Positions 9,801 to 50,831 of a DNA stretch of 64,000 nt are shown one piece after another; within the stretch, counting starts at the first letter, position 1, and the number at the start of each line of letters is the position of its first letter. Made by a program: the position numbers and the translations under genes. Source of the stretch: Streptomyces sp. NBC_01591 (GTDB lineage Bacteria > Actinomycetota > Actinomycetes > Streptomycetales > Streptomycetaceae); assembly GCF_035918155.1 (NCBI RefSeq), contig NZ_CP109327.1:7316001-7380000 (forward strand). The letters run 5' to 3'. Below the pieces are notes generated by a model. It did not search any database. It saw only the letters and a list, made by a program, of their open reading frames with translations, and was not told the origin of the DNA.

Positions 9801-11300
9801 ATCGCGGACAAGGCCATAGCGCTGTGGAACGACAAGATCAAACCGGTCTGGGAGCTGTTCAAGATCGGCATCGGCCTGCTCGGCGCGAAGCTCAAGGAAC
9901 TGTGGAACTCCTACGCCAAGCCGGTCTTCGGGTGGATCGCCGACAAGGCGAAGTGGCTGTGGGACAAGGCACTGAAGCCCGCGTTCGACGCCATGAAGAA
10001 GGGCGTCAAAGCGGTCGGCGACTCCTTCAACGACGCGAAGGACTTCATCAAGAAGGCCTGGGACAAGGTCCAGGACATCGCGAAGAAGCCCGTCCGCTTC
10101 ATCATCGAGAAGATCTACAACGGCGGCATCGTGCCGACGTGGAACAAGATCGCGGGCGCGTTCGGGGCCCCGAAACTGAAAGAACAACCCCTTGACGGGT
10201 TCGCTCGTGGCGGCATCCTGCCCGGTCAGTCGACGTGGCGGCAGGGCGACGACCAGCTCGTCCCGATGCGCCGCGGCGAGGGGGTGTACGTGTCCGAGGC
10301 GATGCGAGACCCGTATGAGCGGGCCCGCCTGCACGCCGTGAACTCGGCGGCCATGCGCGGCAAGTCCCTCAGCCAGTTCCAGGGCTTCGCGAAAGGCGGC
10401 ATCTTCGACTGGGTGAAGGGCGCCGCTTCGAAGACGGTCGACCTGGCAAGCACAGGGGTGTCGTGGCTGAAGGACGGCATGAAGGCCTCCGCGCAGGCCG
10501 GCCTCAACCACGTGGTGAAGCCCCTGCTCGACAAGATCGCAGGGTCTGCCTCCGTATACAGGGACATGATCTCCGGAATCCCGAAGAAGATGATCACCTC
10601 GATCATCGACTTCTCAGGCAAGGCCGACACCAAGCTCGGAGCTGAAGGCATCGGGGGAGGAGGCTTCAAGGCCGGCCTGAAATGGGCCCGTACTCAGAAC
10701 GGCAAGGCATACCAGTGGGGCGGAAACGGGAACCCCTCCTGGGACTGCTCCGGTCTGGTCAGCGCCGTTGAATCCGTGATCCGCGGGCAGAAGCCCCATC
10801 GCCGGTGGGCCACGGGCGCCTTCTCAGGGAAGACAGCCCCTCCAGGCTGGGTCCTCAACGGCTCAAGCCCGTACCGGATCGGCATCACCAATGCCGGCGT
10901 GGGCCACACGGCCGGGACGCTCAACGGGGTCAACGTCGAAAGCCGTGGTGGCGACGGCGTGGTCATCGGCAGTCGGGCGCGGGCGTGGAACGACAGCCTG
11001 TTCACGCACCACTACGCCTACAAGGGCACTTATGACTCGGGCGGCTACCTCCAGCCCGGCCTCAACCTCGCCTACAACGGGACGGGAAGGCCGGAGCCCG
11101 TCTTCACGACGCAACAGGCCAACGCCCTTACATCCATGGCCGCCAGGCCCTCCGAGGGCCCTGCGGGCCTTACCGCCGGCCAGGCGGTGACGCTCCTGGT
11201 CCAGGACGGCCCCACTCTCCGGGCCTACGTCTCCGATGTCGCGGACGGCCGTGTGGATGCAGGGCTGACGCAGGTCCGCCGCGCGATAGGGAGGAACTGA
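6876..11300 (+). CDS. Tape measure protein with NlpC/P60 peptidase domain
   Basis: A 1474-residue protein that sets tail length and usually passes into the cell on DNA injection. GTG 6876 follows GGGAGGAGG. The N-terminus is typical (IQVGSVEVDVIPNTQGIYQR). Residues about 270-570 form long Ala/Gln-rich coiled coils. Hydrophobic segments near 780-830 (for example ITLITIGIVALVAAVVYAY) would cross the membrane. A 45-residue unit is tandemly repeated at about 926-1035. Near the C-terminus YQWGGNGNPSWDCSGLV holds the catalytic Cys 1291, with His 1344 in GVGHTAG, an NlpC/P60-like cysteine peptidase that may open the cell wall during DNA entry. Length suggests a tail of roughly 220 nm by the usual 1.5 Angstrom per residue rule. 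Confidence 0.92.
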   Translation: MAIQVGSVEVDVIPNTQGIYQRLRDGLVPAATRAGQDAGNAAGRAFGPAMQSEIGSIGLRIGQQIGQQIAARIVAEIRGALRDGVTQGGAAARASAVRQGDQTGGAFSRALKTRLEAAFRALPKINIDADTTEADADLQALRVRMETLAGKRIGIDIDAEAAKAEIRLIEAELTRLGARHPNVQVRADTTTALGELAAVRAAIDGVDGKRARIDVDTSGALSAVLQLGVAIGGLAAIPAIPVLAAGIGSIGSAAVAAAVGVGALAAVAAPAIVGIAGALQAQKAAQDAATASSLKGAQASGRGASMALQMAGAQQALATAERNGARQIAQAQKSVRDARQAAADAADQAAQRNAAAARAVQDAERSLAQSQKDAKQAQEDLTDARRQAALELEDLNSRLADAQLSQRDATLGVQEAQADLNRTMADAKSTQLDKDRAQLSYDQAVQRLKEQTTETKRLKDETAAANRAGVEGSDTVAQAQDRLAKAQQQVADRARGVRDAQAEAARTQVETARQVAQAQERVSEATANVAVAQQSAADAVASAQRQIASASQSAAGGVDQAALAQAKYQAELAKLTPAARGTFNAFVSLKSAFSDWSESLQPQVMPLFTRALIGLKNSLPGLTPFVLAAARAIGTLQDRVSAGFKSPWWQTFKQDLAGSVEPAIVGLGASFGRIFKGMAGVVQAFLPHMESISSTMQRITGRFATWGTSLKGSPEFERFLSYASAQGPVLARAIGDISSAFYQMARATAPLSGPVLTALGAVARAIADIARDLPWLIQLFYAVWVATKLWTLAMIAFNLVMNANPITLITIGIVALVAAVVYAYKNFTWFRDVVNTVWEALKTGALFVWNNILKPVFDAFVIGLKAIGTAASWLWNTILSPVFGFIGAAARILATVVLTVLITPLITAFKALAAVGMWLWTNVFGPVFGWIADKAVWLWQEKIKPVWELFKVGIGLLGAKLKELWDKYAKPVLGWIADKAIALWNDKIKPVWELFKIGIGLLGAKLKELWNSYAKPVFGWIADKAKWLWDKALKPAFDAMKKGVKAVGDSFNDAKDFIKKAWDKVQDIAKKPVRFIIEKIYNGGIVPTWNKIAGAFGAPKLKEQPLDGFARGGILPGQSTWRQGDDQLVPMRRGEGVYVSEAMRDPYERARLHAVNSAAMRGKSLSQFQGFAKGGIFDWVKGAASKTVDLASTGVSWLKDGMKASAQAGLNHVVKPLLDKIAGSASVYRDMISGIPKKMITSIIDFSGKADTKLGAEGIGGGGFKAGLKWARTQNGKAYQWGGNGNPSWDCSGLVSAVESVIRGQKPHRRWATGAFSGKTAPPGWVLNGSSPYRIGITNAGVGHTAGTLNGVNVESRGGDGVVIGSRARAWNDSLFTHHYAYKGTYDSGGYLQPGLNLAYNGTGRPEPVFTTQQANALTSMAARPSEGPAGLTAGQAVTLLVQDGPTLRAYVSDVADGRVDAGLTQVRRAIGRN
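9651..9980 (+). repeat. 135-base tandem repeat in the tape measure gene
   Basis: Units start at 9651 and 9786, with a third partial unit from 9921. Each encodes about 45 residues of the pattern FGWIADKA-LW--KIKPVWELF followed by IGLLGAKLKELW. The units are close in DNA sequence as well as in protein, so the duplication is recent. Gain or loss of one unit would change tail length by about 7 nm. Confidence 0.8.
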
Positions 11301-11303
11301 CAG

Positions 11304-12185
11304 ATGCCGCTGATTGTGGATCCGAATGCTCCGCTGATCGAGCCGCCAGAGCGGGTCACCTCGCCGGACGGGTACCTCGCGGCGATCGTCGACGAGCCGT
11401 GGGCGGGGGTGGTGCTGTCGTACAACGGCAACACCCCGCCCGCCCTCGCAGATGTATCTGCGGTGCGGAAAGTCCGCATCGTGCGCCAAGACCCGGGTGC
11501 CGCCGCACCTGTCCCCGTGCGGTCCGCCGACCCGGCATGGGCGATCGGAGGCGTCGGCACGGCCTACGACGCCGAGGCGCCGCTGGGTGCAGCTGTGATC
11601 TACACGGCGGTACCGGTGTACGAGGACGGGTCCACCGGCCCGGAGTCGGCACTGGCAGTCACGATGCCCGTACCGGACCGCGGTCCCCGTGACGTGTGGA
11701 TCAAATCCCTCGACGAACCGGGGCTGTCCGCCCGGGTGACGGTCACGTCGTGGCCGGACCTGACGTGGGCTGCGCGCATCGACCAGGCCGCCGTGCAAGG
11801 CAGCGCCTACCCGGTGACCAGTCAGGACGTGTACGGGGCACCGTCCTCGGAGATCGTCATCGACGCCGAAGGGGACCAGATCCCCGCCCTTGAAGCACTA
11901 CTGGCCACCCCCGGCGTGCGGCTGATCCAGACACGGCCGGACTACTACCGGGCAGACCAGTACGTTCTTCTCGGCGACGTGAAGCAGGGCGTGAACTCGA
12001 CACCGAACCTCTCACGCACGTACAGCGCGAGTGTGGTCCAGGTGGACCGCCCGGACACGGCAGGGCAGCCGCTGCGCATGCCGGGCTGGTCCTGGGACGA
12101 AGTTGCGAACCGCTTCGCCACCTGGGACGCGGTTGCCGCCAGCTACTCCTCGTGGGCGATGCTCAGCACGAACGGAGTTACCTGA
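11304..12185 (+). CDS. Minor tail protein (distal tail type)
   Basis: A 293-residue tail-tip protein encoded directly after the tape measure gene, where distal tail (Dit-like) proteins usually lie. It is beta-rich with repeated SAR-type strands, a segment of AVIYTAVPVYEDGSTGPESAL like a fibronectin-type strand pair (read as AVIYTAVPVYEDG), and a C-terminus full of Trp (WSWDEVANRFATWDAVAASY), typical of the last tail protein segments in Streptomyces phages. Function is by position: attachment of the tail tip complex to the tube. The stop overlaps the next ATG (TGATG). Confidence 0.7.
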   Translation: MPLIVDPNAPLIEPPERVTSPDGYLAAIVDEPWAGVVLSYNGNTPPALADVSAVRKVRIVRQDPGAAAPVPVRSADPAWAIGGVGTAYDAEAPLGAAVIYTAVPVYEDGSTGPESALAVTMPVPDRGPRDVWIKSLDEPGLSARVTVTSWPDLTWAARIDQAAVQGSAYPVTSQDVYGAPSSEIVIDAEGDQIPALEALLATPGVRLIQTRPDYYRADQYVLLGDVKQGVNSTPNLSRTYSASVVQVDRPDTAGQPLRMPGWSWDEVANRFATWDAVAASYSSWAMLSTNGVT

Positions 12186-13345
12186 TGCTGCCCATCCCCG
12201 CTGCCGCACTGGCCGCTCTCACCGGGGCGTGCCAGCGCCCGTACCGCGCGGAGTGGTCGGTCGACGGCGGGCAGACGTGGCAGTCGTGCGGCATCGTCGC
12301 CGGGTCGGCGCAGATTCAGGCGTCACGCACTCAGACTGTCCGCTACACGGCATCGGCGACCCTGACCGGTGTGTCGCTCGGGCGCGATGGCATCAACCCG
12401 ATCAGCACGAACGTCCGCCTGTGGCAGGGGATCACGCCTGCCCGCACCGACACGGTATGGATTCCCGCCGGCCGGTACACCGTCAACCGGCCCAAGGTGA
12501 CCCGCACCGGGATCCAGGTGGAACTCGACGGCCTGGAGGACGAGATCAGCGCCGCGGCTTTCCCGTCGCCCCGGGTGGTGGGCCCGGACTCAGCCCGCGC
12601 CCTAGTGGCCACCCTGGTAGGAGAGGCACTGCCGGGCGTACCAGTGGCGTGGCGCGAGGGAATCGACCCGGACTCGACCGTGCCGCAGATCGTCGCGGAC
12701 GAGGACCGATGGTCGGTGCTGTCCGGCGGGACGGACACCTCGGGCACGGCGACCGGGATCGCCGCGTCACTGGCCGGGGAGATCTGGGTCGACGCGCGAG
12801 GCATCGTGACAGCCGGCCCAGTGCCGACGCTGGCCGACCCGATTGTGTGGCGGATCGCCCAAGGGATGGGCGGCGCTCTGATCGAACCGCAGCCCGAGCA
12901 GAGCGCCGAGGGGCTCGCCAACTTGTGGTCTGTCAGCGGCGATGCGGGCTCCGGCGCTCCGGCGGTCGGCCCCGTACACGCCTGGGACGACGACCCGGGA
13001 AGCCTCACCTACGCCGGCCCGGACCCGGTGGGCGATCCGCTGGCACCGCAGCGCCTGGGCCTGACATGGGTCCGTGTCCGCACCCAGAGGTACTCGTCCG
13101 CCCTCATCACTACTGCAGGGCAGGCCGAGGAGGTGGCGAGGGCGCGGCTCGCCGACAGCCTCGGCGTGCAGTCCTCGCTCAGCTTCACCTCAGCTTGCAA
13201 TCCCGCGATCGAGCCAGGGGACGTGGTGGAAGTTGAAACCGAGCCCGGCGTGTGGGAGCGGCACCTGATCGACTCCCTGTCGTACACCCTCGGTGCGTCC
13301 TCGATGTCTTGTACGACCCGCACGACGTCAAGGAGGCTCACGTGA
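12185..13345 (+). CDS. Minor tail protein (DUF5047-like)
   Basis: A 386-residue tail-tip protein. The N-terminus (ALTGACQRPYRAEWSVDGGQ followed by TWQSCGIVAGSAQIQAS) and the middle repeat VTRTGIQVELDGLEDEISAA resemble the DUF5047 tail proteins of Streptomyces phages. The C-terminal EPGDVVEVETEPGVWERHL and SYTLGASSMSCTTR look like a baseplate hub fold in which lines of strands end with a conserved ERHLIDSL. Likely part of the tail hub. ATG 12185 is coupled to the previous stop; the stop overlaps the GTG of the next gene (GTGA). Confidence 0.65.
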   Translation: MLPIPAAALAALTGACQRPYRAEWSVDGGQTWQSCGIVAGSAQIQASRTQTVRYTASATLTGVSLGRDGINPISTNVRLWQGITPARTDTVWIPAGRYTVNRPKVTRTGIQVELDGLEDEISAAAFPSPRVVGPDSARALVATLVGEALPGVPVAWREGIDPDSTVPQIVADEDRWSVLSGGTDTSGTATGIAASLAGEIWVDARGIVTAGPVPTLADPIVWRIAQGMGGALIEPQPEQSAEGLANLWSVSGDAGSGAPAVGPVHAWDDDPGSLTYAGPDPVGDPLAPQRLGLTWVRVRTQRYSSALITTAGQAEEVARARLADSLGVQSSLSFTSACNPAIEPGDVVEVETEPGVWERHLIDSLSYTLGASSMSCTTRTTSRRLT

Positions 13346-14259
13346 CCGCTGCGGACGACCTCGGAAAATCTCTGGCAGCAGCAGGCGCTTCGGGTGCCCA
13401 GGTAGTGTCCGCGCAGGTCGTGGACGTCACCGCAGCCGGGGTCAACTTGGACTACCAGGGGACGCTGCTTCTCGACGTGGCGTGCCCGGACTCCTACCGA
13501 GGCCGGGCCGCAGGAGACTGGGTAGCCGTCCGCCCCGGCGCCGTGCCGGTAGTGCTGTGGCGCCTCGGCCCGGACCCTGGCGGTACGGACGCGGCCAGCA
13601 TCGGAGAGATCGCCACCGACGCCGCCTCCGACCTGATCGCGATCTCCGCATACACGTGGGGCACGACAACCCCCGGAGCGGGCTGGGAGCAGGTCAACAC
13701 CCTGTGGACCCGCAAGGACGCCCGCGGGGTAGGCCAGCTGTACGCACAGATCGGAAGCTCCGCACCGTCCCCTACCCCGCCCGCGACACGGCCACCGAAG
13801 ACGGTGACGATCTCCCCGACAGCCGCCGACAGTTGGCGCAATGGTCGCCGAGACGACTACGCGTCCAACCCGATGCAGGGCGACTGGACCGGCGGCGGCA
13901 ACCGGCGGGGGGCGTGGTTCTACGGCACGGGCATAGCGGATGCCTGCGCAGGCAAGGCCGTCTCGTCGATGACGGCTTCGTTCACCCGTCGCGCCGGGTC
14001 CGGCTCGAACGCGAAGCGCCCCTTGCATCTCTACCTGCACGGCTACACGTCACCGCCAGCAGGCCAGCTCAACCTGGCCAACGGTCCGGAGGAACTGCTG
14101 TCGCTGTCTGCCGGGGGAAAGGGAACCGCCACTCTCCCGGCTGCCTGGCGCTCGGCCCTGGCCTCCGGGAGCGCCCGCGGACTGGCGATCTACGCCAGCG
14201 GGTCCACCGACTACATGGCCGTCACCGGCGGTGCGATCACCATCAAATTCTCAGCCTGA
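13342..14259 (+). CDS. Minor tail protein, possible baseplate component
   Basis: A 305-residue protein starting at GTG 13342 with AAGGAGG 8 bases upstream. The first 90 residues resemble an OB-type barrel (VVDVTAAGVNLDYQGTLLLDV, split here as VVDVTAAGVNLDYQG and TLLLDVACPDSYRG), as seen in baseplate hub insertions. The C-terminal part (WRNGRRDDYASNPMQGDWTG, then HLYLHGYTSPPAGQLNLANG) is a carbohydrate-binding-like beta sandwich in style and may bind the receptor. A Pro/Thr linker separates them. No enzyme motif is visible. Function is inferred from position and composition. Confidence 0.6.
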   Translation: MTAADDLGKSLAAAGASGAQVVSAQVVDVTAAGVNLDYQGTLLLDVACPDSYRGRAAGDWVAVRPGAVPVVLWRLGPDPGGTDAASIGEIATDAASDLIAISAYTWGTTTPGAGWEQVNTLWTRKDARGVGQLYAQIGSSAPSPTPPATRPPKTVTISPTAADSWRNGRRDDYASNPMQGDWTGGGNRRGAWFYGTGIADACAGKAVSSMTASFTRRAGSGSNAKRPLHLYLHGYTSPPAGQLNLANGPEELLSLSAGGKGTATLPAAWRSALASGSARGLAIYASGSTDYMAVTGGAITIKFSA

Positions 14260-14269
14260 TCGGAGCTTC

Positions 14270-14890
14270 ATGGCGACCATCGGATACGCCCAACTCCCTG
14301 TCCCCGGGGGCGGGGACGCCCCGCTCGGGCCCGCCGCCCTGGCCGAGCTGGCGACGGCCATCGACCCGCACCTGATGCAGCACGTCGCGGATCTCGCCGA
14401 GCGCAACTCGGTGTACGCGGGGGCGCCACTGCATACCGTGGTGACCGCCTCGAACGGATCTCTGTGGATCAAGACTTCGTCGAGCGCAAACACGTGGGCC
14501 ACGATCTGGGAACCGACCCCTGCGTGGCGCACCCTGTCGCTCGCGTCCGGCTTCCAGGCCGGTCAGAACACCCCGCAGATCCGTCTGATCGGCACCCGTG
14601 TCCACATGCGCGGGCGCATCATCCGCACGGACGGCGGGCTCATCGTCGGCACCAACGGAATCCAGATCGCCACCGTGCCGGCCGACTGCAAGCCACAGCA
14701 CGTCGCAACGTCAACCGCGTTCTTCTCCATGTCCGGCGACCCGTTGATCGGCGCGGGCCGGGTCGAGGCCTGGTCCGACGACGAAACCACGCCGCGGGCG
14801 CTGACGTTCTGGAGCCAGGACGGTGCGCAGGACGGCGGCACGGTCGGCACGTCGTGGGTCGACATCTCCGGCAGTTACTGGATCGACTGA
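14270..14890 (+). CDS. Small tail protein, receptor-binding type
   Basis: A 206-residue protein with N-terminal ATIGYAQLPVPGGGDAPLGP and AALAELATAIDPHLMQHVAD, a pattern seen in Streptomyces phage tail proteins just before the fibre gene. The C-terminal 110 residues (WRTLSLASGFQAGQNTPQIR, then VHMRGRIIRTDGG) look like the beta-rich head domain of a fibre. GGAGC 5 bases before the ATG 14270 is a weak ribosome binding site. Function is inferred only. Confidence 0.55.
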   Translation: MATIGYAQLPVPGGGDAPLGPAALAELATAIDPHLMQHVADLAERNSVYAGAPLHTVVTASNGSLWIKTSSSANTWATIWEPTPAWRTLSLASGFQAGQNTPQIRLIGTRVHMRGRIIRTDGGLIVGTNGIQIATVPADCKPQHVATSTAFFSMSGDPLIGAGRVEAWSDDETTPRALTFWSQDGAQDGGTVGTSWVDISGSYWID

Positions 14891-14899
14891 AAGGCACCC

Positions 14900-16732
14900 A
14901 TGCCCCTGTACACCTACGGCGGAACCCCCGCCGAAGTCCTGACCACCGCGACCGGAGATGTGATCCCCGACTATCCGATCAACGTCCGCGTCGCCGGGAG
15001 CGGGGAGCTGATCACCGCCCTCTACGAGGCGGACGGTACGACCCCGATCGGGCAACTGCGGTCCAATCCCACCTCGTCCGCCGCACCGGGCGCGATACGC
15101 GAGTGGATGTGCGATTGGCCGCAGATCGAGTACGAGTACAACGCCAGCGGCGGGCGCACGGTGCGCTGGTACTCCTCTGGCAGGGAGGTGGCCACTGAGG
15201 CGCTGCAGGCGGCGACGGCCGCCGGACAACTGGCGACTAGCGCGGCAGGAGACGCGGCAGCAGCCCTGACCGCAGCTGGCAACGCGTCCGCGACCGCAGC
15301 GACAGCAAGCAGCGCGGCAGCGGCCGCAGAGACCGCGGCCGAGCAGGCACAGACCGACGCAGCCGCAGCCATCGCCGCCGTACAGTCTCGGCTCGGCGAA
15401 GCCGCCACCGTCGATAATCTGCCGGCCGTTGTCTTCGACGCCCACCGAGGCGGCGCCGGAGAATCCCCGGAGAACAGCGTGGATGCGCTGCGCGCGGCAC
15501 GGGCGTACTCGCAGATTCTCGACGTCGACGCCCGGCTCCTGGCCGACGGCACGCTCGTCTCGATGCACGACGCGACCATCGACCGCGTGACCAACAAGTC
15601 CGGCACCGCCGCACAGATCACGGCCGCGCAGTTGGCCGCCGCACGCCTGGACCCGAGCACGTGGTTCGCAGCCGGATACCCCGACTTGCCGATCCCGACC
15701 GTCGAAGACCTGCTGAACGAGTTCGGTGGCCGGTACGTGCTGACGATCGAGGCGAAGGATGCCGCGTCCGTCCCGAAACTGGCTGCCATGATCAAGGCCC
15801 GTCGGCTTGAGCGCTCGGTGCTGATCAACAGCAACACGCCCTCGGTGATGGCCACGATCAAAAGCAGCGGGTGCCTCGCACACCTGTGGCGGTCTGCCTC
15901 GCAGATGGCGAGCGACAACCCGACCACAATCAAGGCCAGCGGCGCGGACCTCCTGGACCTCGACATCGCGGGCACGGACGCACAGATCACCGCCGCGATA
16001 GCCCAGAACTACCCGCTCGGCGTCTATGCCCACACCCTCGCCCGCCGCGTCCAGCGAGACCGGGCCCTGGCGCTCGGGTGTCGCGGCATCATCGCGGACT
16101 ACCCCGCCTACGTCAGCGGGGCCGTTCCGCGCCGCACCGCCAGCACGTTCGGTATGGGGACCTGGGGCCCCGGCTACGTTCCCTCGGCCGCGGCCCGCCC
16201 GGTCCTGGATGCTCAGGGCCGGATCCCTCTCCCGCCGCCCGCTTCTGCCGACCCGGCCGACGCTCAGGTTCTCCTCGCCGGAGAAGTCTCGCCCGCGCCC
16301 GCCACCACGACGGTTGACGTGAAGTTCAGCGTTCCGACGGGGGGCAGCGCTGGATGGAGCCTGCTCAGCCTGCACTTGGGCGCCGACGACGACGCCACGA
16401 TCCTGTCCAGCTCGGACATCCGCCACAACGGCTACACCGTCCAGGTCTCCAACAACCGCAGCCTGCGGATCTACCGGGACGACAAGGCGGCCGGCACATC
16501 CACCCAGCTGGCCAACACGACGGCCGGGGCCGACCTCGCGGCGGGCACCGTCTACACCCTGCGGTGCGTGATCACGGCCACGCAGATCACGCTGTCCGTC
16601 CCCGAGGTGTCCGGACTGACCACCACAGTCACGGATTCCACCTACCGAGTGCCGTGGTCGGTGTTCGTCGGGCGCAATTACAACGCGGCCGCCACCGGTT
16701 TGATCAACATCGCGAGCATCAGCGCCACTTGA
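14900..16732 (+). CDS. Tail fibre-like protein with glycerophosphodiester phosphodiesterase domain
   Basis: A 610-residue tail protein of three parts. Residues 1-95 are an N-terminal virion-anchoring domain. Residues 96-170 are almost only Ala, Thr, Ser, Glu and Gln and should form a coiled-coil stalk. Residues 175-400 are a GDPD enzyme: H182-R183 and E191-N192 in AHRGGAGESPENS, D208 and D210 in ILDVDARL, H223 in SMHD, and E284-K286 in TIEAK, so all main catalytic and metal positions are present. Residues 440-610 look like a concanavalin/lectin sandwich. GDPD enzymes hydrolyse glycerophosphodiesters; on a phage tail the expected substrate is glycerol-phosphate teichoic acid of the Streptomyces wall. 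Confidence 0.85.
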   Translation: MPLYTYGGTPAEVLTTATGDVIPDYPINVRVAGSGELITALYEADGTTPIGQLRSNPTSSAAPGAIREWMCDWPQIEYEYNASGGRTVRWYSSGREVATEALQAATAAGQLATSAAGDAAAALTAAGNASATAATASSAAAAAETAAEQAQTDAAAAIAAVQSRLGEAATVDNLPAVVFDAHRGGAGESPENSVDALRAARAYSQILDVDARLLADGTLVSMHDATIDRVTNKSGTAAQITAAQLAAARLDPSTWFAAGYPDLPIPTVEDLLNEFGGRYVLTIEAKDAASVPKLAAMIKARRLERSVLINSNTPSVMATIKSSGCLAHLWRSASQMASDNPTTIKASGADLLDLDIAGTDAQITAAIAQNYPLGVYAHTLARRVQRDRALALGCRGIIADYPAYVSGAVPRRTASTFGMGTWGPGYVPSAAARPVLDAQGRIPLPPPASADPADAQVLLAGEVSPAPATTTVDVKFSVPTGGSAGWSLLSLHLGADDDATILSSSDIRHNGYTVQVSNNRSLRIYRDDKAAGTSTQLANTTAGADLAAGTVYTLRCVITATQITLSVPEVSGLTTTVTDSTYRVPWSVFVGRNYNAAATGLINIASISAT

Positions 16733-16747
16733 CCCCCTCTTCGTCCC

Positions 16748-16790
16748 GAGCCCCGAGCCGCTACGGCCGGGGCTCCTCGCATGTCTGGAG
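16748..16790 (+). promoter_or_regulatory. Hairpin plus CATGTCTGGAG leader before the endolysin gene
   Basis: GAGCCCCG (16748-16755) pairs with CGGGGCTC (16768-16775), with an inner GCC/GGC, and is followed by CTCGC and CATGTCTGGAG (16780-16790). It repeats the arrangement at 5302-5331. The TGGAG is the ribosome binding site of the endolysin (ATG 16796). The hairpin could end tail transcription partly or protect a processed lysis mRNA. Confidence 0.5.
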
Positions 16791-16795
16791 GCCCC

Positions 16796-17647
16796 ATGGC
16801 CAACCCCCTGTCCGCCGCCGCGGTCCTCGCTGCACTCCGCGCCGAGGACGTGCGTGTGGTCGAGGTCGGCAACTGGCGTACCCACAACCGCAACCAGAAG
16901 GGTGCGTGGGGCCCGATCAACGGCAGCATCGTGCACCACACCGTCACCAAGGGGACCGCGGCCACGGTGCGGATCGTCCGCGACGGCTACAGCAGCCTGC
17001 CCGGTCCGCTGTGCCACGGGATGATCGCGAAGGACGGCCGCGTCCACCTGGTCGGCTGGGGCCGCACCAACCACGCCGGCGGCGGCGACCCCAAGGTGCT
17101 GGACCAGGTCACAGCCGAGTCCTACGGCACCCGGCCGACTCCGCCCACCCACGGCAACAGCGACGGGGTCGACGGCAACGCGCGGTTCTACGGCTGGGAG
17201 TGTCAGAACCTCGGCGATGGCAAGGACCCTTGGCCGGCCGCCCAGTACGACGCGATCGTCCGCGTCCAAGCCGCGCTGTGCCGGGCGCACAAGTGGTCGG
17301 CGAAGTCCGTGATCGGCCATCTGGAGTGGTCGAGCGACAAGGTCGACCCCCGCGGCTTCTCGATGACCACCCTGCGCTCCGACGTCGCCGAGCGCCTCAA
17401 GCACCCCGCCAGCTGGTCGCCCGGCAAGACCACCCCCACCCCGCCGAAGGAGACGCCCGTGTCGACGACGGACGACCGCGTGAAGGCCCTGCACACCAAC
17501 CTGCTCTCCATCGGAGAGATCGGCACCACCGCCAAGGGCACCCCGTCGGGCCGCGTCGAGCACGGTGCGGGCTACTACCTCGCCCACATCCTCAACGAAG
17601 TCCGCCAGCTCCGCGCGGACGTCGCCGCTCTGAAGAAGGAGGCCTGA
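16796..17647 (+). CDS. Endolysin, N-acetylmuramoyl-L-alanine amidase
   Basis: A 283-residue lysis enzyme of the amidase_2/PGRP type, cutting between muramic acid and the stem peptide. Zinc ligands are visible: H47 or H48 in GSIVHHTVTKG, and the late IGHLEWSSDKVDPRG with His, Lys and Asp-Pro at the usual places; GMIAKDGRVHLVGWGRTNHA holds a further conserved section. A Pro/Thr linker (TTPTPPKETP) leads to an 80-residue C-terminal domain ending in a short coiled coil, probably cell-wall binding or oligomerising. No signal peptide, so export needs the holin that follows. ATG 16796 was chosen over 16781 because the ribosome binding site GGAGG lies between them. Confidence 0.9.
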   Translation: MANPLSAAAVLAALRAEDVRVVEVGNWRTHNRNQKGAWGPINGSIVHHTVTKGTAATVRIVRDGYSSLPGPLCHGMIAKDGRVHLVGWGRTNHAGGGDPKVLDQVTAESYGTRPTPPTHGNSDGVDGNARFYGWECQNLGDGKDPWPAAQYDAIVRVQAALCRAHKWSAKSVIGHLEWSSDKVDPRGFSMTTLRSDVAERLKHPASWSPGKTTPTPPKETPVSTTDDRVKALHTNLLSIGEIGTTAKGTPSGRVEHGAGYYLAHILNEVRQLRADVAALKKEA

Positions 17648-42821: not shown

Positions 42822-42847
42822 TCTACGCACGTGTCTACGGGCGTAGA
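42822..42847 (+). promoter_or_regulatory. Operator TCTACG-N2-CGTAGA before the pyrimidine cluster
   Basis: TCTACG-GG-CGTAGA (42834-42847) is a perfect 6-base palindrome 43 bases before the start of the nitrilase-family gene. A further TCTACG half-site lies at 42822-42827. The same palindrome, also with an upstream extra half-site, occurs at 45889-45902. Shared sites before the two units of one pathway point to a common regulator, perhaps of the GntR or similar dimeric type. The regulator is not in the window. Confidence 0.6.
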
Positions 42848-42889
42848 AACGCGTTGAGGCTCTCTGACGCCGCGTCGAAGGAGCAGCTC

Positions 42890-43732
42890 ATGTCCCAAGT
42901 CGTACGCGCCGCACTCGTCCAGGCGACCTGGACCGGCGACACCGAATCCATGATCGCCAAGCATGAGGAGCATGCACGCGAGGCCGCCCGTCAGGGCGCG
43001 AAGATCATCGGTTTCCAGGAGGTGTTCAACGCCCCCTACTTCTGCCAGGTGCAGGATCCCGAGCACTACCGCTGGGCCGAGGCCGTCCCGGACGGGCCGA
43101 CCGTCCGCCGGATGCAGGAACTCGCCCGCGAGACCGGCATGGTGATCGTCGTGCCGGTCTTCGAGGTCGAGCAGTCCGGTCTTTACTACAACACCGCCGC
43201 CGTGATCGACGCCGACGGCTCCTATCTCGGCAAGTACCGCAAGCACCACATCCCGCAGGTCAACGGGTTCTGGGAGAAGTACTACTTCAAGCCCGGCAAC
43301 GTCGGCTGGCCGGTCTTCGACACGGCCGTCGGCAAGGTCGGCGTCTATATCTGCTACGACCGGCACTTCCCCGAAGGGTGGCGTCAACTCGGCCTCAACG
43401 GTGCCCAGTTGGTCTACAACCCGTCTGCCACCTCGCGCGGTCTCTCCGGCTATCTCTGGCAGCTGGAACAGCCCGCGTCCGCTGTCGCCAACGAGTACTT
43501 CGTCGCCGCGATCAACCGCGTCGGCCAGGAGGAGTACGGCGACAACGACTTCTACGGAACCAGCTACTTCGTCGACCCGCGTGGCCAGTTCGTCGGTGAG
43601 GTCGCCAGCGACAAGGAGGAGGAACTCGTCGTGCGCGACCTCGACTTCGGTCTCATCGACGAGGTCAGACAGCAGTGGGCGTTCTACCGGGACCGCCGCC
43701 CCGACGCGTACGAAGGACTGGTGGAGCCGTGA
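42890..43732 (+). CDS. Nitrilase-family beta-ureidopropionase / N-carbamoyl amide hydrolase
   Basis: A 280-residue cytoplasmic enzyme hydrolysing N-carbamoyl-beta-amino acids (third step of reductive pyrimidine breakdown) or N-carbamoyl-D-amino acids. The Glu-Lys-Cys triad is visible: E in IIGFQEVFNAPYFCQ, K in GKYRKHHIPQVNGFWEKYYF and C in VGVYICYDRHFPEGWRQLGL. NPSATSRGLSGYLWQLEQPA completes the fold. ATG 42890 follows AAGGAGCAGCTC. The GTG of the next gene overlaps its stop (GTGA). Its promoter region carries the shared TCTACG palindrome. Confidence 0.9.
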   Translation: MSQVVRAALVQATWTGDTESMIAKHEEHAREAARQGAKIIGFQEVFNAPYFCQVQDPEHYRWAEAVPDGPTVRRMQELARETGMVIVVPVFEVEQSGLYYNTAAVIDADGSYLGKYRKHHIPQVNGFWEKYYFKPGNVGWPVFDTAVGKVGVYICYDRHFPEGWRQLGLNGAQLVYNPSATSRGLSGYLWQLEQPASAVANEYFVAAINRVGQEEYGDNDFYGTSYFVDPRGQFVGEVASDKEEELVVRDLDFGLIDEVRQQWAFYRDRRPDAYEGLVEP

Positions 43733-45012
43733 GCAGCCTGCACCATCGCCATCTCGCCGTCAGCCCCGACTGGCTGGCGCTCTATTACAAGCACCCCTTG
43801 GAGATCACCCACGGCGAGGGCCGCCACGTCTGGGACGCCGACGGGAGGCGTTACCTCGACTTCTTCGGCGGCATCCTCACCACCATGACCGCCCACGCCC
43901 TGCCCGAGGTGACCAAGGCGGTCAGCGAGCAGGCCGGCCGGATCATCCACTCGTCCACGCTCTACCTCAACCGGCCGATGGTCGAGCTGGCCGAACGCAT
44001 CGCCACGCTCTCCGGTATCCCGGACGCCAGGGTCTTCTTCACCACCTCCGGTACCGAGGCCAACGACACGGCGCTGCTGCTCGCCACCACGTACTGCAGG
44101 TCGAACCAGATCCTCGCGATGCGCAACAGTTACCACGGCCGGTCGTTCTCCGCCGTCGCCATCACGGGCAACAACGCCTGGTCGCCGACCAATCTGTCGC
44201 CGTTGCAGACGCTGTACGTGCACGGCGGCGTCCGTACCCGGGGGCCGTACGCGCACCTGAGTGACGCGGAGTTCATCGAGGCGTGTGTCGCCGATCTGGA
44301 GGACCTGCTCGGGCACACCCGGGCACCGGCCGCCCTGATCGCCGAACCCATCCAGGGCGTCGGGGGATTCACCTCGCCGCCCGACGGCCTCTACGCGGCG
44401 TTCCGCCGGGTCCTGGACAGGCACGGCGTCCTGTGGATCTCCGACGAGGTACAGACCGGCTGGGGCCGCTCCGGCGAACACTTCTGGGGGTGGCAGGCGC
44501 ACGGCGAGAACGGTCCGCCGGACATCCTCACCTTCGCCAAGGGCATCGGCAACGGCATGTCGATCGGCGGTGTCGTGGCCCGTGCCGGCGTCATGAACTG
44601 CCTGGACGCCAACTCCATTTCGACGTTCGGCGGTTCCCCGGTCACCATGGCGGCCGGTCTCGCCAACCTCTCCTACCTCCTCGAACACGACCTGCAGGGC
44701 AACGCCCGGCGCGTCGGCGGTCTGCTGATCGAGCGGCTCCGTGCGATCGGCGCGGGTTCGGAGTGCGTACGGGAGGTGCGCGGCCGGGGTTTGATGATCG
44801 GCATCGAGCTGGTGAAGCCCGGCACCGACGAGGCGAACCCGGAGGCGGCAGCGGCCGTACTCGAAGCGGCCCGCGAGGGCGGTCTGCTCATCGGCAAGGG
44901 CGGCGGCCACAACACCAGCGTGCTGCGGATCGCGCCACCGCTCTCGCTGACCATCCCGGAGGCGGAGGAGGGCGCGGAGATCCTGGCCGAGGCGCTCCGG
45001 TCGGTGGGCTGA
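43729..45012 (+). CDS. Class III aminotransferase (beta-alanine/AGXT2 type)
   Basis: A 427-residue PLP enzyme. The PLP lysine lies in PPDILTFAKGIGNGMSIGGV; the cofactor pocket GTEANDTALLLATTYCRSNQ, MRNSYHGRSFSAVAITGNNA and LWISDEVQTGWGRSGEHFWG are complete. This subgroup (YYKHPLEITHGEGRHVWDAD near the N-terminus) goes with beta-alanine/3-aminoisobutyrate:pyruvate or glyoxylate transaminases, so it takes up the amine made by the upstream hydrolase. GTG 43729 overlaps the hydrolase stop, so the two are coupled. A strong hairpin follows. Confidence 0.88.
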   Translation: MSSLHHRHLAVSPDWLALYYKHPLEITHGEGRHVWDADGRRYLDFFGGILTTMTAHALPEVTKAVSEQAGRIIHSSTLYLNRPMVELAERIATLSGIPDARVFFTTSGTEANDTALLLATTYCRSNQILAMRNSYHGRSFSAVAITGNNAWSPTNLSPLQTLYVHGGVRTRGPYAHLSDAEFIEACVADLEDLLGHTRAPAALIAEPIQGVGGFTSPPDGLYAAFRRVLDRHGVLWISDEVQTGWGRSGEHFWGWQAHGENGPPDILTFAKGIGNGMSIGGVVARAGVMNCLDANSISTFGGSPVTMAAGLANLSYLLEHDLQGNARRVGGLLIERLRAIGAGSECVREVRGRGLMIGIELVKPGTDEANPEAAAAVLEAAREGGLLIGKGGGHNTSVLRIAPPLSLTIPEAEEGAEILAEALRSVG

Positions 45013-45086: not shown

Positions 45087-45687
45087 TCAGCCCCGGTGGC
45101 CGGTGGGGCGGGTGAGGTCCAGGGAGTGAACCGGGTCGAGCTCGCCGTAGTACGCGAGGTGCTTGTAGCGCACATCGGTGACGGCCAGCGTGGCCTCGGC
45201 GACGCCCCGGCGCACCGTTGCCCTGAAGCGGACCGAGCCGTCCTTGCAGCGAGGGGCGCAGCGCGTCGAAGGCGTCCGGCTTCAGCTCGGCGAGCGAGGT
45301 GCCGTCGAGGTTCCAGGCGGGGTCGGTGGCGACGCCCTCGTGGCGCAGGACCGTGGGCGCGATATCGGTGATCCTGACGTCGTCGCGTACCGAACCGGGC
45401 TGAATGCCCCTGCCCTGGGCGATCACGAACGTGCCGCGCTCCAGCGGGGTGTTGCCGCCGTGTCCGCCGGTGGGGGTGTGGCCGTGGTCGGCGGTGACGA
45501 CGACGAGCCAGTCCTCCTTCGCGTACGTCGGCCGTGAGGTCACGGCGTCGAGCAGCCGGCCGATCTGGGCGTCGGCGGTGTTCAGGGCCGTGAGGTACGT
45601 GATCCTCCGGGATCGGTCGGTGGACACCGGACCTCGGGGGCGTCCGGTGATGTGTCCGAGGCTCGCCGTCGGTGGTGATCGGACCAC
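45087..45687 (-). pseudogene. Truncated and frameshifted type I phosphodiesterase/phosphatase
   Basis: Minus strand. The first 125 residues (ITYLTALNTADAQIGRLLDA, WLVVVTADHGHTPTGGHGGN, TPLERGTFVIAQGRGI, VRITDIAPTVLRHEGVATDP) are the metal-binding C-terminal half of an alkaline-phosphatase-superfamily enzyme: Asp-His in TADHGH and His in GGHGGN. A frame shift near the stretch DALRPSLQ moves the rest to another frame: KDGSVRFRATVRRGVAEATL, AVTDVRYKHLAYYGELDPVH, stop at 45087. The whole N-terminal half, including the nucleophile Thr/Ser, is missing. So it is a decayed gene. Confidence 0.7.
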
Positions 45688-45863
45688 GCCACGTATGGGA
45701 CGGGCGCGTGAACCGTACTCAACATTTGGACCAGACCCGTAATCATTCTGTTATTCAGTGCTGGTCATCGTCGTCGCTGTGGGCCGGTGGAGTGCCGGGC
45801 GGATGAAACAGAAACGTCTTCAGCGGTTGGCGGCGGCGGTATTGCCACAGTGGGTAACTCGCT

Positions 45864-45903
45864 TCTACGTTCTTCATCACGCACCTTGTCTACGTGCGTA
45901 GAC
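45864..45903 (+). promoter_or_regulatory. Second TCTACG-N2-CGTAGA operator
   Basis: GTCTACG-TG-CGTAGAC (45888-45903) is a perfect 7-base palindrome 28 bases before the ribosome-binding region of the dihydropyrimidinase scar, with an extra TCTACG half-site at 45864-45869. It matches the site at 42834-42847. The gap 45688-45930 therefore holds the promoter of the second unit of the pyrimidine cluster. Confidence 0.6.
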
Positions 45904-45930
45904 CCATTCCGCCGCAGTGAGGAGGGGTAC

Positions 45931-46014
45931 ATGAGCCGCACCGTCATCCACGGTGGTCTCGTCACTTTCGGTGACACCTTCGTGCCGCGCTCCACCTGCC
46001 AGTACCTGGGCTGA
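45931..46014 (+). pseudogene. Internal-deletion scar of the native dihydropyrimidinase
   Basis: An 84-base frame with an excellent ribosome binding site (GAGGAGGGG) and start, coding 27 residues. The first eleven, MSRTVIHGGLV, match the N-terminus of the full enzyme at 47160 (MARTLITGGLV); the last ten, VPRSTCQYLG, match its C-terminal LPRGIGQYTN and the usual RSTCQYL end of Streptomyces dihydropyrimidinases as I remember them. Only six residues (TFGDTF) lie between. So about 1.3 kb of coding DNA seems to have been removed in frame, keeping start, stop and coupling to the next gene 46 bases on. The operator is kept as well. Confidence 0.65.
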
Positions 46015-46060
46015 ACCACCCCGGAACCTCATCGCACCCAATCGAACTCGGAGGTCACGA

Positions 46061-47074
46061 GTGGACTTCGGACTTGTCCTGCAGACCGACCCGCCCGCGT
46101 CACAGGTGGTGGGACTCATGCGCCGCGCGGAGCGCAACGGCTTCCGCTACGGCTGGACCTTCGACTCCGCCGTCCTCTGGCAGGAGCCCTTCGTCATCTA
46201 CAGCCAGATCCTGGAGCACACCAGCACGCTCCACGTCGGCCCGATGGTGACCAACCCCGGGACCCGCACATGGGAGGTCACGGCCTCCACCTTCGCCACC
46301 CTCAACGACATGTACGGCAACCGGACCGTGTGCGGCATCGGCCGCGGCGACTCCGCCATGCGGGTCGCGGGCCGCAGCCCCAACACCCTGGCCCGGCTCG
46401 GCGAGGCCATCGACGTCATCCGCGACCTCGCCGAGGGCCGGGAAGCGGTGGTCGACGGCAACCCGATCCGGATCCCCTGGATCGAGAACGGGAAGCTGCC
46501 GGTGTGGATGGCGGCATACGGTCCGAAGGCGCTCGCCCTCGCCGGGCAGAAGGCCGACGGCTTCATCCTCCAGCTCGCCGACCCGTTCCTCACCGAATGG
46601 ATGGTCAAGGCCGTGCGACAGGCCGCGACCGAGGCCGGCCGCGACCCTTCCGCGATCAGGATCTGTGTTGCCGCACCGGCCTACGTCACGGCCGACGACT
46701 CGGCCGAGGCCCTGGCGCACGCCCGCGAGCAATGCCGGTGGTTCGGCGGCATGGTCGGCAACCACGTCGCCGACCTGGTCGCCAAGTACGGCGACCACTC
46801 CGCCATGGTCCCGGACGAGCTCACCGCGTACATCAAGGACCGGCACGGCTACGACTACAGCCACCACGGCCGCGCCGACAACCCGTCCACCGACTTCGTC
46901 CCCGACGAGATCGTCGACCGCTTCTGCCTCCTCGGCCCCGCCGAGGCCCACATCGCCAAACTGCGGGAGCTCCGCGAGCTCGGCGTCGACCAGTTCGCCG
47001 TGTACGCGATGCACGATGCCCGCGAGACCACCATCGACGCGTACGGCTCCGACATCATCCCGGCCTTCGGCTGA
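46061..47074 (+). CDS. F420-type LLM-class oxidoreductase (TIGR03842 family)
   Basis: A 337-residue luciferase-like monooxygenase-fold protein, which in this family is tied to the dihydropyrimidinase cluster. It begins VDFGLVLQTDPPASQVVGLM and has TLHVGPMVTNPGTRTWEVTA, RTVCGIGRGDSAMRVAGRSP and the cofactor segment IPWIENGKLPVWMAAYGPKA, then QKADGFILQLADPFLTEWMV. Probably uses F420H2 or F420; may reduce uracil/thymine or related rings in the first step of reductive breakdown. GTG 46061 follows GGAGGT. Codon use is the normal one of the genome, nearly all G or C at third positions. Confidence 0.85.
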   Translation: MDFGLVLQTDPPASQVVGLMRRAERNGFRYGWTFDSAVLWQEPFVIYSQILEHTSTLHVGPMVTNPGTRTWEVTASTFATLNDMYGNRTVCGIGRGDSAMRVAGRSPNTLARLGEAIDVIRDLAEGREAVVDGNPIRIPWIENGKLPVWMAAYGPKALALAGQKADGFILQLADPFLTEWMVKAVRQAATEAGRDPSAIRICVAAPAYVTADDSAEALAHAREQCRWFGGMVGNHVADLVAKYGDHSAMVPDELTAYIKDRHGYDYSHHGRADNPSTDFVPDEIVDRFCLLGPAEAHIAKLRELRELGVDQFAVYAMHDARETTIDAYGSDIIPAFG

Positions 47075-47159
47075 CACACCGAGCTGCAGTGGCGCATCGG
47101 GCGAGCAAGAACGGTTCATGAGCGAACGCCGTCGATCCGACGAGAATGGAGCAGAAGCA

Positions 47160-48551
47160 ATGGCACGCACTCTCATTACTGGCGGACTGGTGATCACGGC
47201 CTCCGACGAATTGCACGTCGATGTGCTCGTCGACGGTGGCCGCGTCGTGGCCCTTGCCACCCATGACAGTCACGGGTGGGCGGCCGACCATGTCATCGAC
47301 GCTGCCGGGAAGTATGTGATTCCGGGTGGGGTCGACGGTCACACGCATATGGAGATGCCGTTCGGCGGCACGTTCGCTTCCGATACCTTCGAGACCGGTA
47401 CTCGGGCTGCGGCGTGGGGCGGCACGACAACCATCATCGATTTCGCGATCCAGTCCAAGGGCGGGTCTCTCGGTGAAGGACTCGACGCCTGGCACGAGAA
47501 GGCGGATGGAAAGTGCGCGATCGACTACGCGTTCCACATGATCATGTCCGATGTGAACGAGTCCTCGCTCAGAGAGATGGACGGGCTCGTCTCGGCCGGC
47601 GTCACATCGTTCAAGCTCTTCACCGCGTACCCGGGAGTCTTCCTCTCCGACGATGGGCAGATCCTTCGAGCCATGCAGCGCGCCGGTTCGAACGGTGGGC
47701 TCGTGATGACGCATGCGGAGAACGGTCTCGCGATCGACGTGCTCGTGGAGCAGGCGCTGGCACGCGGTGAGAGGGACCCGCGCCACCACGGGGAGGTCCG
47801 CAAGGCGCTGCTCGAAGCGGAGGCGACGCATCGGGTCATCAAGCTGAGCCAAGTGGCCGGTTCCCCCCTCTACGTGGTGCATGTCTCGGCTCAGGAGGCC
47901 GTTGCCGAACTGGCGCGAGCCCGGGACGAGGGGCTTCCCGTGTTCGGTGAGACGTGTCCGCAGTACCTCTTCCTGTCGACCGACAACCTTGCTGAGCCGG
48001 ACTTCGAAGGCGCGAAGTACGTGTGCTCCACTCCGCTGCGGCCGAAGGAGCACCAGGAGGCTCTGTGGCGTGGGTTGCGGACGAACGATCTGCAGGTGGT
48101 GTCCACGGACCATTGCCCGTTCTGCTTCAAGGGGCAGAAGGAGATGGGGCGGGAGGACTTCTCGAAGATCCCGAACGGCATGCCGGGTGTCGAGAACCGA
48201 ATGGACCTGCTGCACCAGGCCGTTGTCGACGGGCATATCAGCCGCCGTCGCTGGATCGAGATCGCCTGCGCCGCGCCTGCTCGCATGTTCGGTCTGTATC
48301 CGAAGAAGGGCACGATCGCTCCGGGCGCGGACGCCGACATCGTGATCTACGACCCGACTGCCGAGCAGATCATCTCCGCCGAGACGCATCACATGAATGT
48401 CGACTACTCGGCCTACGAGGGCAAGCGCGTAACGGGGCGGGTCGAGACCGTGCTGTCGCGCGGGGTTCCAGTGGTCGACAACCGCGCGTACGTGGGGACG
48501 CCGGGGCACGGAATGTACTTGCCGCGGGGCATCGGCCAGTACACGAACTGA
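47160..48551 (+). CDS. Dihydropyrimidinase / D-hydantoinase, probably acquired
   Basis: A 463-residue zinc amidohydrolase that opens dihydrouracil, dihydrothymine or hydantoins to N-carbamoyl amino acids. Ligands: GVDGHTHMEMPFGG (HxH), carboxylated Lys in AGVTSFKLFTAYPG, His in YVVHVSAQEAV and HAENG, Asp in VSTDHCPFCFKGQ. The N-terminus MARTLITGGLVITASDELHV is complete. ATG 47160 has GGAG at 47149-47152 (AATGGAGCAGAAGCA). Codons differ from the neighbours: about a quarter of the first 100 end in A or T, against about one in twenty in the gene before. With the scar of a native gene 1.1 kb upstream and a truncated gene downstream this suggests import from a relative such as another actinomycete. 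Confidence 0.9.
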   Translation: MARTLITGGLVITASDELHVDVLVDGGRVVALATHDSHGWAADHVIDAAGKYVIPGGVDGHTHMEMPFGGTFASDTFETGTRAAAWGGTTTIIDFAIQSKGGSLGEGLDAWHEKADGKCAIDYAFHMIMSDVNESSLREMDGLVSAGVTSFKLFTAYPGVFLSDDGQILRAMQRAGSNGGLVMTHAENGLAIDVLVEQALARGERDPRHHGEVRKALLEAEATHRVIKLSQVAGSPLYVVHVSAQEAVAELARARDEGLPVFGETCPQYLFLSTDNLAEPDFEGAKYVCSTPLRPKEHQEALWRGLRTNDLQVVSTDHCPFCFKGQKEMGREDFSKIPNGMPGVENRMDLLHQAVVDGHISRRRWIEIACAAPARMFGLYPKKGTIAPGADADIVIYDPTAEQIISAETHHMNVDYSAYEGKRVTGRVETVLSRGVPVVDNRAYVGTPGHGMYLPRGIGQYTN

Positions 48552-48669
48552 ATCGGGACGCCGGTGCGCACGGCATGACGTGCTGATGGGGGCCGGGCGG
48601 CCCGGTGGGCCGGGCCGCCCGCTTCGGGGAGCTCAACAGCGGTCGTCCTGCAGGGATTCTGGTCCGACT

Positions 48670-49059
48670 ACGAAGCCGCATGCCCTCCATCGCGAAGACC
48701 CCGCGCCGCCGGGCGCGTTCCATCAGGTCGTACGACTCGCTCCGGTTGATGGCGAACGGCTTCTCGACGAGTACGGAACGTCCAGCAGCGATACAGAGAG
48801 CCGCTGCCCTGTGATGGGCTATGTGCGGCGTGGAGACATGGACGACGTCGATGCTCTCGTCCGAGGCCAGCTCCCCCCAACTCCCGTACGCCCGGGGGAT
48901 ATCGAGCCGATCGGCGAACGCACGCGCCTTCTCGGCGGACCGCGAGCCGACAGCCACCACCTGCGCGTCGGCCAGGCGTTGGAGGCCGCGGGTGAAGTCG
49001 GCGGCCATCTGGCCCGTGGCCAGGATCCCCCAGCGAACCCTCTCCGTCATGGTGGGCAT
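48670..49059 (-). pseudogene. Gfo/Idh/MocA oxidoreductase, 3' part lost
   Basis: Minus strand. The first 130 residues are a normal NAD(P)-binding Rossmann domain: RVRWGILATGQMAADFTRGL, QVVAVGSRSAEKARAFADRL, VVHVSTPHIAHHRAAALCIA, GRSVLVEKPFAINRSESYDL and RGVFAMEGM. The last phrase is followed by RLRSRTRIPAG and then nonsense, Arg/Pro-rich, up to a chance stop at 48370 within the dihydropyrimidinase gene. A complete member has about 330 residues, with the EGM at the start of the catalytic domain, which is missing. The break point near 48670 is probably the right border of the imported dihydropyrimidinase DNA. Confidence 0.75.
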
Positions 49060-49280
49060 TGCAGCGCAGATGTGCGGAGATCGTCCAGGGTGATCACCGG
49101 CCTGCGGAGCAGGGCGACCGGACCGCCGATGTCACGGGGTACAGGGGTTCGGTGCGGCCTCATCGTGGAAGGATCTGCCGGAGCACGTCACTCGAGGGCA
49201 GCGCCCCCGGAGCCCCTGCCGGCGTGCGCCCCGCGCCCCGCCCCGCACGGCACCGTTCCCGAGCGAAGGGTCCAGCCGCC

Positions 49281-50831
<1,551 letters not shown>

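Follow-up and report, generated by a model that had tools for sequence, protein, structure and literature searches.

Deletion between short direct repeats is a general mechanism, and in xenologous gene displacement within an operon a function is replaced in place by the copy of another lineage. For the type VI effector loci of Vibrio cholerae, displacement by homology-facilitated illegitimate recombination, with the old genes retained, has been proposed (PMC5361080). Literature searches on dihydropyrimidinase in Streptomyces together with horizontal gene transfer, or together with F420, returned nothing on the locus described below. This locus lies within a stretch of 64,000 nucleotides of Streptomyces sp. 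NBC_01591 (the window).

An open reading frame of 84 bases (45931-46014, the scar) translates into MSRTVIHGGLVTFGDTFVPRSTCQYLG and a stop (27 codons), and is preceded by the ribosome site gaggagggg. A preliminary description had taken it for the in-frame remainder of a native dihydropyrimidinase gene (hydA). Over its first 34 bases the frame is identical to the beginning of the G075 hydA (34/34), and 45975-46060 is 89.5% identical to the hydA end and spacer of G268. The comparison of sequences confirmed the frame as a real hydA relic, the resemblance of its ends being far beyond chance. A full hydA at the same place in relatives, as had been expected, was also found. It stands directly 5′ of the LLM-class F420-dependent oxidoreductase gene (LLM) in 29 of the 29 loci with the best LLM matches (1392-1416 nt; 199 genomes searched), and, among 80 named-species loci found with the LLM protein, 71 have it at most 300 nt upstream of this gene. 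The remaining nine loci include L130 and L194, which are cut near a contig end, and L162, in which hydA is in two pieces. These counts indicate that a gene of ~1.39 kb normally stands at the scar position.

Table 1. Features of the hydA-LLM locus and its flanks in window coordinates (aa and nt, identity at the amino acid and nucleotide level).
Position	Strand	Feature	Evidence
42893..43732	+	Carbon-nitrogen hydrolase (nitrilase family), native flank	Best NCBIfam N-carbamoylputrescine amidase, 260.8 bits, under cut-off; G075 97.8% aa, 96.5% nt
43744..45012	+	Aminotransferase (acetylornithine/4-aminobutyrate type), native flank	Best NCBIfam 300 bits, under cut-off; G075 96.4% aa, 94.5% nt, and tree neighbour
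45090..45706	-	Phosphodiesterase/nucleotide pyrophosphatase-type gene, two internal frame-breaking deletions	Deletions of ~743 and 632 nt vs. G075
45780..45930	+	Native hydA leader with palindrome (45888-45903) and Shine-Dalgarno	150 nt, 95.3% to G075
45931..45964	+	Scar piece 1: native (A-type) hydA start (codons 1-11, one further base)	34/34 to G075
45965..45974	+	Scar piece 2: ten bases resembling the hydA-internal motif P-F-G-G-T-F (~codons 67-70), original reading phase	
45975..46014	+	Scar piece 3: B-type hydA end FVPRSTCQYLG and stop, last 12 codons	Alignments to G268, G025, G266 and G127 begin at 45975
46015..46060	+	B-type spacer, 46 bases, Shine-Dalgarno ggagg at 46050-46054	Matches G268, G025, G266, L116
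46061..47074	+	LLM-class F420-dependent oxidoreductase, B-type	TIGR03842, 586 bits
47077..47159	+	C-type leader of second hydA; B/C seam at 47075-47077	47077-47170 like G179, 47091-47170 like G019
47160..48551	+	Complete dihydropyrimidinase, C-type	TIGR02033, 560.8 bits (cut-off 393)
48640..49059	-	Gfo/Idh/MocA oxidoreductase fragment, NAD-binding part only, between hydA and NCS1	PF01408, 70.4 bits
49139..49229	+	Relic leader; in G179 and G019 precedes hydA tail and A-type LLM	87% to G179
49281..50831	+	NCS1 nucleobase transporter, native flank	TIGR00800, 448 bits; G075 96.1% aa, 95.4% nt

The junction (query 45690-46110) was searched against 392 genomes of the genus, the own genome included, with the best matches listed first; 20 of the 392 gave no match. 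Among the matches listed, none from the 391 other genomes spanned the seam, and the own genome alone did so. Also among the matches listed, those to the left part ended at 45963 or 45964 (G075, G313, G204, G166, G070, G057, G149 and G245), and those to the right part started at 45975 (G268, G025, G266, G383, G004 and G127). The two ends resemble different hydA lineages, here termed A-type and B-type, with a 10-base middle piece between them, features that the preliminary description did not contain. The G075 hydA has the same first 34 bases as the scar, but it ends in GHGMYTPRATCQYLD followed by an 11-base spacer. A PRATCQYL[DN] end and a different, 11-base spacer were found in G075 and six further A-type genomes. 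At the native A-type hydA/LLM boundary the stop and the Shine-Dalgarno overlap (TAGGAG). This overlap is absent in the window, and the LLM start at 46061 is served by its own Shine-Dalgarno inside the B-type spacer. The proposal that the coupling to the F420 oxidoreductase gene had been kept was not upheld, because the present coupling is the leader of another lineage and not the native overlap. The scar is most likely chimeric, with an A-type hydA start and a B-type hydA end.

This assembly alone documents the junction, as would be the case if an assembly or sequencing artefact had joined two loci. We hold such an artefact to be extremely unlikely: the genome is in three contigs and has one full hydA and, in a DNA search, a single LLM match, and the pieces keep both frame and gene order, with matches of 88-100%.

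Among 30 genomes compared by rpoB, G075 came closest (99% nt) and is the nearest relative found. Its gene order is leader, A-type hydA, A-type LLM and NCS1. In the window, between G075-like flanks, B-type DNA (hydA end and LLM) comes first and a C-type dihydropyrimidinase, which has a separate leader, comes next; an A-type LLM is absent. The nit, amt and ncs1 flanks are 94.5-96.5% identical to G075 at the nucleotide level, in contrast to 84.1% (83% aa) for LLM. The nucleotide identity of the window LLM was 89.9% with G266 and 88.2% with G268; that with G070 (A-type) was 87.0% and that with G204 85.1%, values that soften the A/B contrast. Best matches of the candidate B-donor genomes were only 88-91% nt; at 88-90% nt the B donor is not a close one, which weighs against the exchange explanation.

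In FastTree protein trees, LLM grouped with B-type genomes (S. bikiniensis, S. flavochromogenes and others), and the hydA at 47160-48551 grouped with G032, G179 and G019. An AU test was carried out on a quick LLM tree of 34 rows (B group, SH-aLRT 87). Forcing the window LLM with that of G075 cost 68.3 log units and was rejected (p-AU 0.00128), and forcing it with the eight A-group rows cost 73.6 log units (p-AU 0.00477). Block and flanks differ in phylogenetic affinity when rpoB, the protein trees, the AU test and the identities are considered; GC3 (LLM 0.947, C-type hydA 0.823, flanks 0.882-0.934) does not cleanly separate the block. The window state was taken as derived, since leader, hydA and LLM stand together in G075 and in six other A-type genomes. 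From these comparisons we consider it likely that an operon block was exchanged and that the scar marks its left seam.

The tail, the spacer and the LLM, all of another lineage, disfavour an origin of the scar solely by deletion within the A-type gene of the clade. Of the claim that one native gene had lost its inside, the relic with both hydA ends was retained, and the nativeness of the end, spacer and LLM was not, these being of another lineage than those of G075 and the six A-type genomes. The explanation of the preliminary description would be that a single hydA, already in possession of both ends, lost its inside, and that no A/B recombination took part in making the scar. A one-native-gene origin of both ends finds no support in G075 and the six A-type relatives, which combine an intact hydA-LLM with the PRATCQYL[DN] end and 11-base spacer, yet the intact hydA of G127 has both end types. 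Its start is 32/34 like the scar, it ends in FVPRSTCQYLG, the end and spacer are 86% identical (spacer figure 86.4%), and the G127 LLM is 88.3% nt identical to that of the window. The full hydA at the place in all 29 nearest-LLM loci, the kept frame and the existence of in-phase repeats would also fit such a deletion. It is nevertheless improbable: a clade of the window LLM with that of G075 was rejected, the A-type LLM was lost elsewhere, and the scar start and leader are nearer to G075 (34/34 and 95.3%) than to G127 (32/34, with a leader unlike that of the window). Because of the G127 gene, with its A-like start and B-type end, a single A/B recombinant hydA may have carried both ends before the scar formed. 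This supports a recombinant-first course of the exchange and leaves room for a single-gene deletion; our best explanation is weakened to the extent that both ends could come from one gene.

The middle piece was compared with internal hydA sequences. The segment 45965-45982 matched the hydA of L125 (S. bikiniensis) in 16 of 18 bases at the PFGGTF motif (~codons 67-73), in the scar's own codon phase, and the 14 best matches over 23 genes and G075 were all at this motif. When the ten filler bases were shuffled, 0 of 2000 reached 16 in the three genes tested. By eye, the A-type gene of G075 matches 14 of the 18 bases, and the middle piece could have been supplied by an A-type gene. In G025 and G266, the PFGGTF motif and the end motif GHGTF contain an exact in-phase 11-bp repeat, CGGCACGTTCG, 1143 bases apart. 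The exact repeat was present in 2 of 27 genes examined, and the longest common word in the other 25 was 4 to 8 bases. Fusion in silico across the repeat gave 38 of the 44 bases of 45965-46008; the scar has GAC at the position where the motif predicts GGC. At the first join (codon 12 to the motif, with ~codons 12-66 removed) no shared bases were seen by eye. The short repeats suspected at the breakpoint were thus recovered in part, since the 11-bp in-phase repeat would explain one in-frame deletion and the other join is without a repeat. The scar requires at least two joins.

Both joins are in frame, in contrast to the two frame-breaking deletions in the adjacent opposite-strand phosphodiesterase-type gene. 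This two-against-two contrast points to selection on frame, but is only suggestive. In tblastn with the G075 frame (665 aa), pieces 2-38, 249-366 and 614-665 were matched by the adjacent gene (45090-45706) in shifted frames, with the junctions mapped, and the G075 frame matches PF01663 (93.5 bits). By its two deletions this gene has shrunk from 665 to ~207 residues relative to G075.

The operator-like palindrome and the ribosome site ahead of the frame have been retained, as had been stated, in a leader 95.3% identical to that of G075. From 45780 through to 45964, the sequence is 83-93% nt like the pre-hydA leader of eight A-type genomes. The palindrome, GTCTACGTGCGTAGAC, is exact once within the window and exact in 9 of 18 loci checked. 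With up to three mismatches it had four matches at two places in the window, and 0 of 100 shuffles reached four. A copy with two mismatches lies at 42833-42848, before the nitrilase-family gene, and the copies before this gene and before the hydA relic are perhaps a common operator. Because the native leader, the operator-like palindrome and the ribosome site are present, the 27-codon relic is probably transcribed and translated as a leader. It most likely makes no useful protein and is a short leader ahead of the B-type LLM and C-type hydA.

By our estimate, it is very unlikely that selection has preserved the frame for a working leader peptide or small protein. The strong ribosome site, the conserved operator-like palindrome and the in-frame joins beside two frame-breaking deletions are compatible with this idea; however, the residues are hydA pieces only, among the matches listed no junction-spanning match came from the 391 other genomes, and 0 exact 32-mers were found in the genome contigs, a collection that may leave out records very near the window's. 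A conserved small gene is likewise disfavoured, the frame being in no other genome among the matches listed, in agreement with the preliminary description.

On the right side of the block, the C-type match begins at 47077, directly after the LLM stop. The dihydropyrimidinase gene at 47160-48551 is the only full hydA in the own genome, where four other protein matches were two long ones (27-31% identical) and two short ones. Its protein is 97% identical to that of G032, 95% to G179 and 94% to G019, vs. 81-84% in most matches listed. An origin as a recent copy of the native gene is disfavoured (79.5% nt to the G075 hydA). The dihydropyrimidinase step is presumably supplied by this C-type gene, now downstream of LLM. 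Within 48620-49139 the oxidoreductase fragment is the sole recognised content, and a source for 48640-49059 was not found in the loci searched. Comparison with G179 revealed that the A-type LLM is absent ahead of NCS1. Because 49139-49229 resembles the stretch that in G179 precedes a decayed hydA tail and the A-type LLM, and the window from 49229 onward is LLM-NCS1 spacer, we infer that the A-type LLM is missing by a further deletion.

A second hydA tail just before LLM was sought in 15 hand-picked loci that either lack hydA or have it 190 nt or more away from LLM. A tail was found in seven, namely G149, G019, G179, G052 and L152 (0/2000 resamples in each), L192 (1) and L182 (2), and the signal was weaker in G158 (7/2000) and L179 (15/2000). 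No tail before LLM was found in L156 (73/2000), L169 (166/2000), G274, L174, L171 and L172. An intact hydA lies upstream of LLM at 251 nt in L171, 190 nt in L172, 200 nt in G274 and 292 nt in L152. In G266, L116 and L125, a truncated hydA (codons 2-158) lies ahead of a full B-type hydA and LLM, a tandem that could give rise to such a scar.

Other arrangements were noted as well. In L104 (G019), 6947-17250 between the C-type hydA and LLM holds TetR, AfsA-type, acyl-CoA dehydrogenase and HAD genes; of ten frames looked at in this stretch, TetR accounts for two, AfsA, acyl-CoA dehydrogenase and HAD for one each, and five have no match. The operon looks as though it had been split there by a butyrolactone signalling cluster. 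LLM genes that are not flush with hydA (L152, L174, L179, L182, L108 and L104) have, by eye, an upstream element like CTTCCCAAA-N-GGTCCAGGATTGTCCC, perhaps an own promoter or operator of LLM. Full-length hydA genes of recombinant look occur in L112 (G127; 7849-9246), an A-like start with a B-type end, and in L101 (G149; 8423-9820), where an A-like start is joined to a gene of C-type grouping.

For the exchanged operon block we propose that (i) incoming B-type DNA would have recombined at hydA; (ii) the first product would have been either an A/B recombinant hydA, built like that of G127, or a tandem of a truncated hydA and a complete B gene, as in three genomes; (iii) the C-type hydA would have come to supply the enzyme, and the redundant first-position copy would then have collapsed by two in-frame deletions; and (iv) one of these deletions may have used the in-phase repeat that PFGGTF shares with GHGTF, and the other would have taken out ~codons 12-66. 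The in-frame state was possibly favoured, as it would avoid polarity on the B-type LLM and C-type hydA. A wider reading, to which we give a rather low probability, is that the hydA-LLM segment is a recurrent exchange site. Versions of hydA and LLM would displace one another there, with tails in decay, truncated heads and fused mini-genes as remnants, and selection would keep the operon-first relic in frame because, as a translated adaptor, it protects downstream expression.

The locus can be read almost base by base as an operon probably assembled from the DNA of several lineages, in which the relics document successive steps. What looks like an in-frame deletion can in fact mark a lineage seam, revealed only by comparison. 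The locus also lends itself to a small natural experiment on whether selection maintains the reading frame of dead genes at the head of an operon.

Events of these kinds are ordinary and known; at this locus they are unusually legible. As proposed for the Vibrio cholerae effector loci (PMC5361080), incoming homologous DNA would have displaced a gene, with old parts staying beside the new. In contrast to those loci, the Streptomyces case concerns a metabolic operon with two gene ends fused in frame, and a one-sided anchored crossover would be only a conjectured step in it. The replacement of a function in place from another lineage is shared with xenologous displacement; the two source lineages, the change of order from hydA-LLM to LLM-hydA and the legible relic set the Streptomyces locus apart. 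Short-repeat deletion is matched by the 11-bp in-phase repeat at the predicted places in the genes of two relatives, but it would account for only one of the two joins of the scar.
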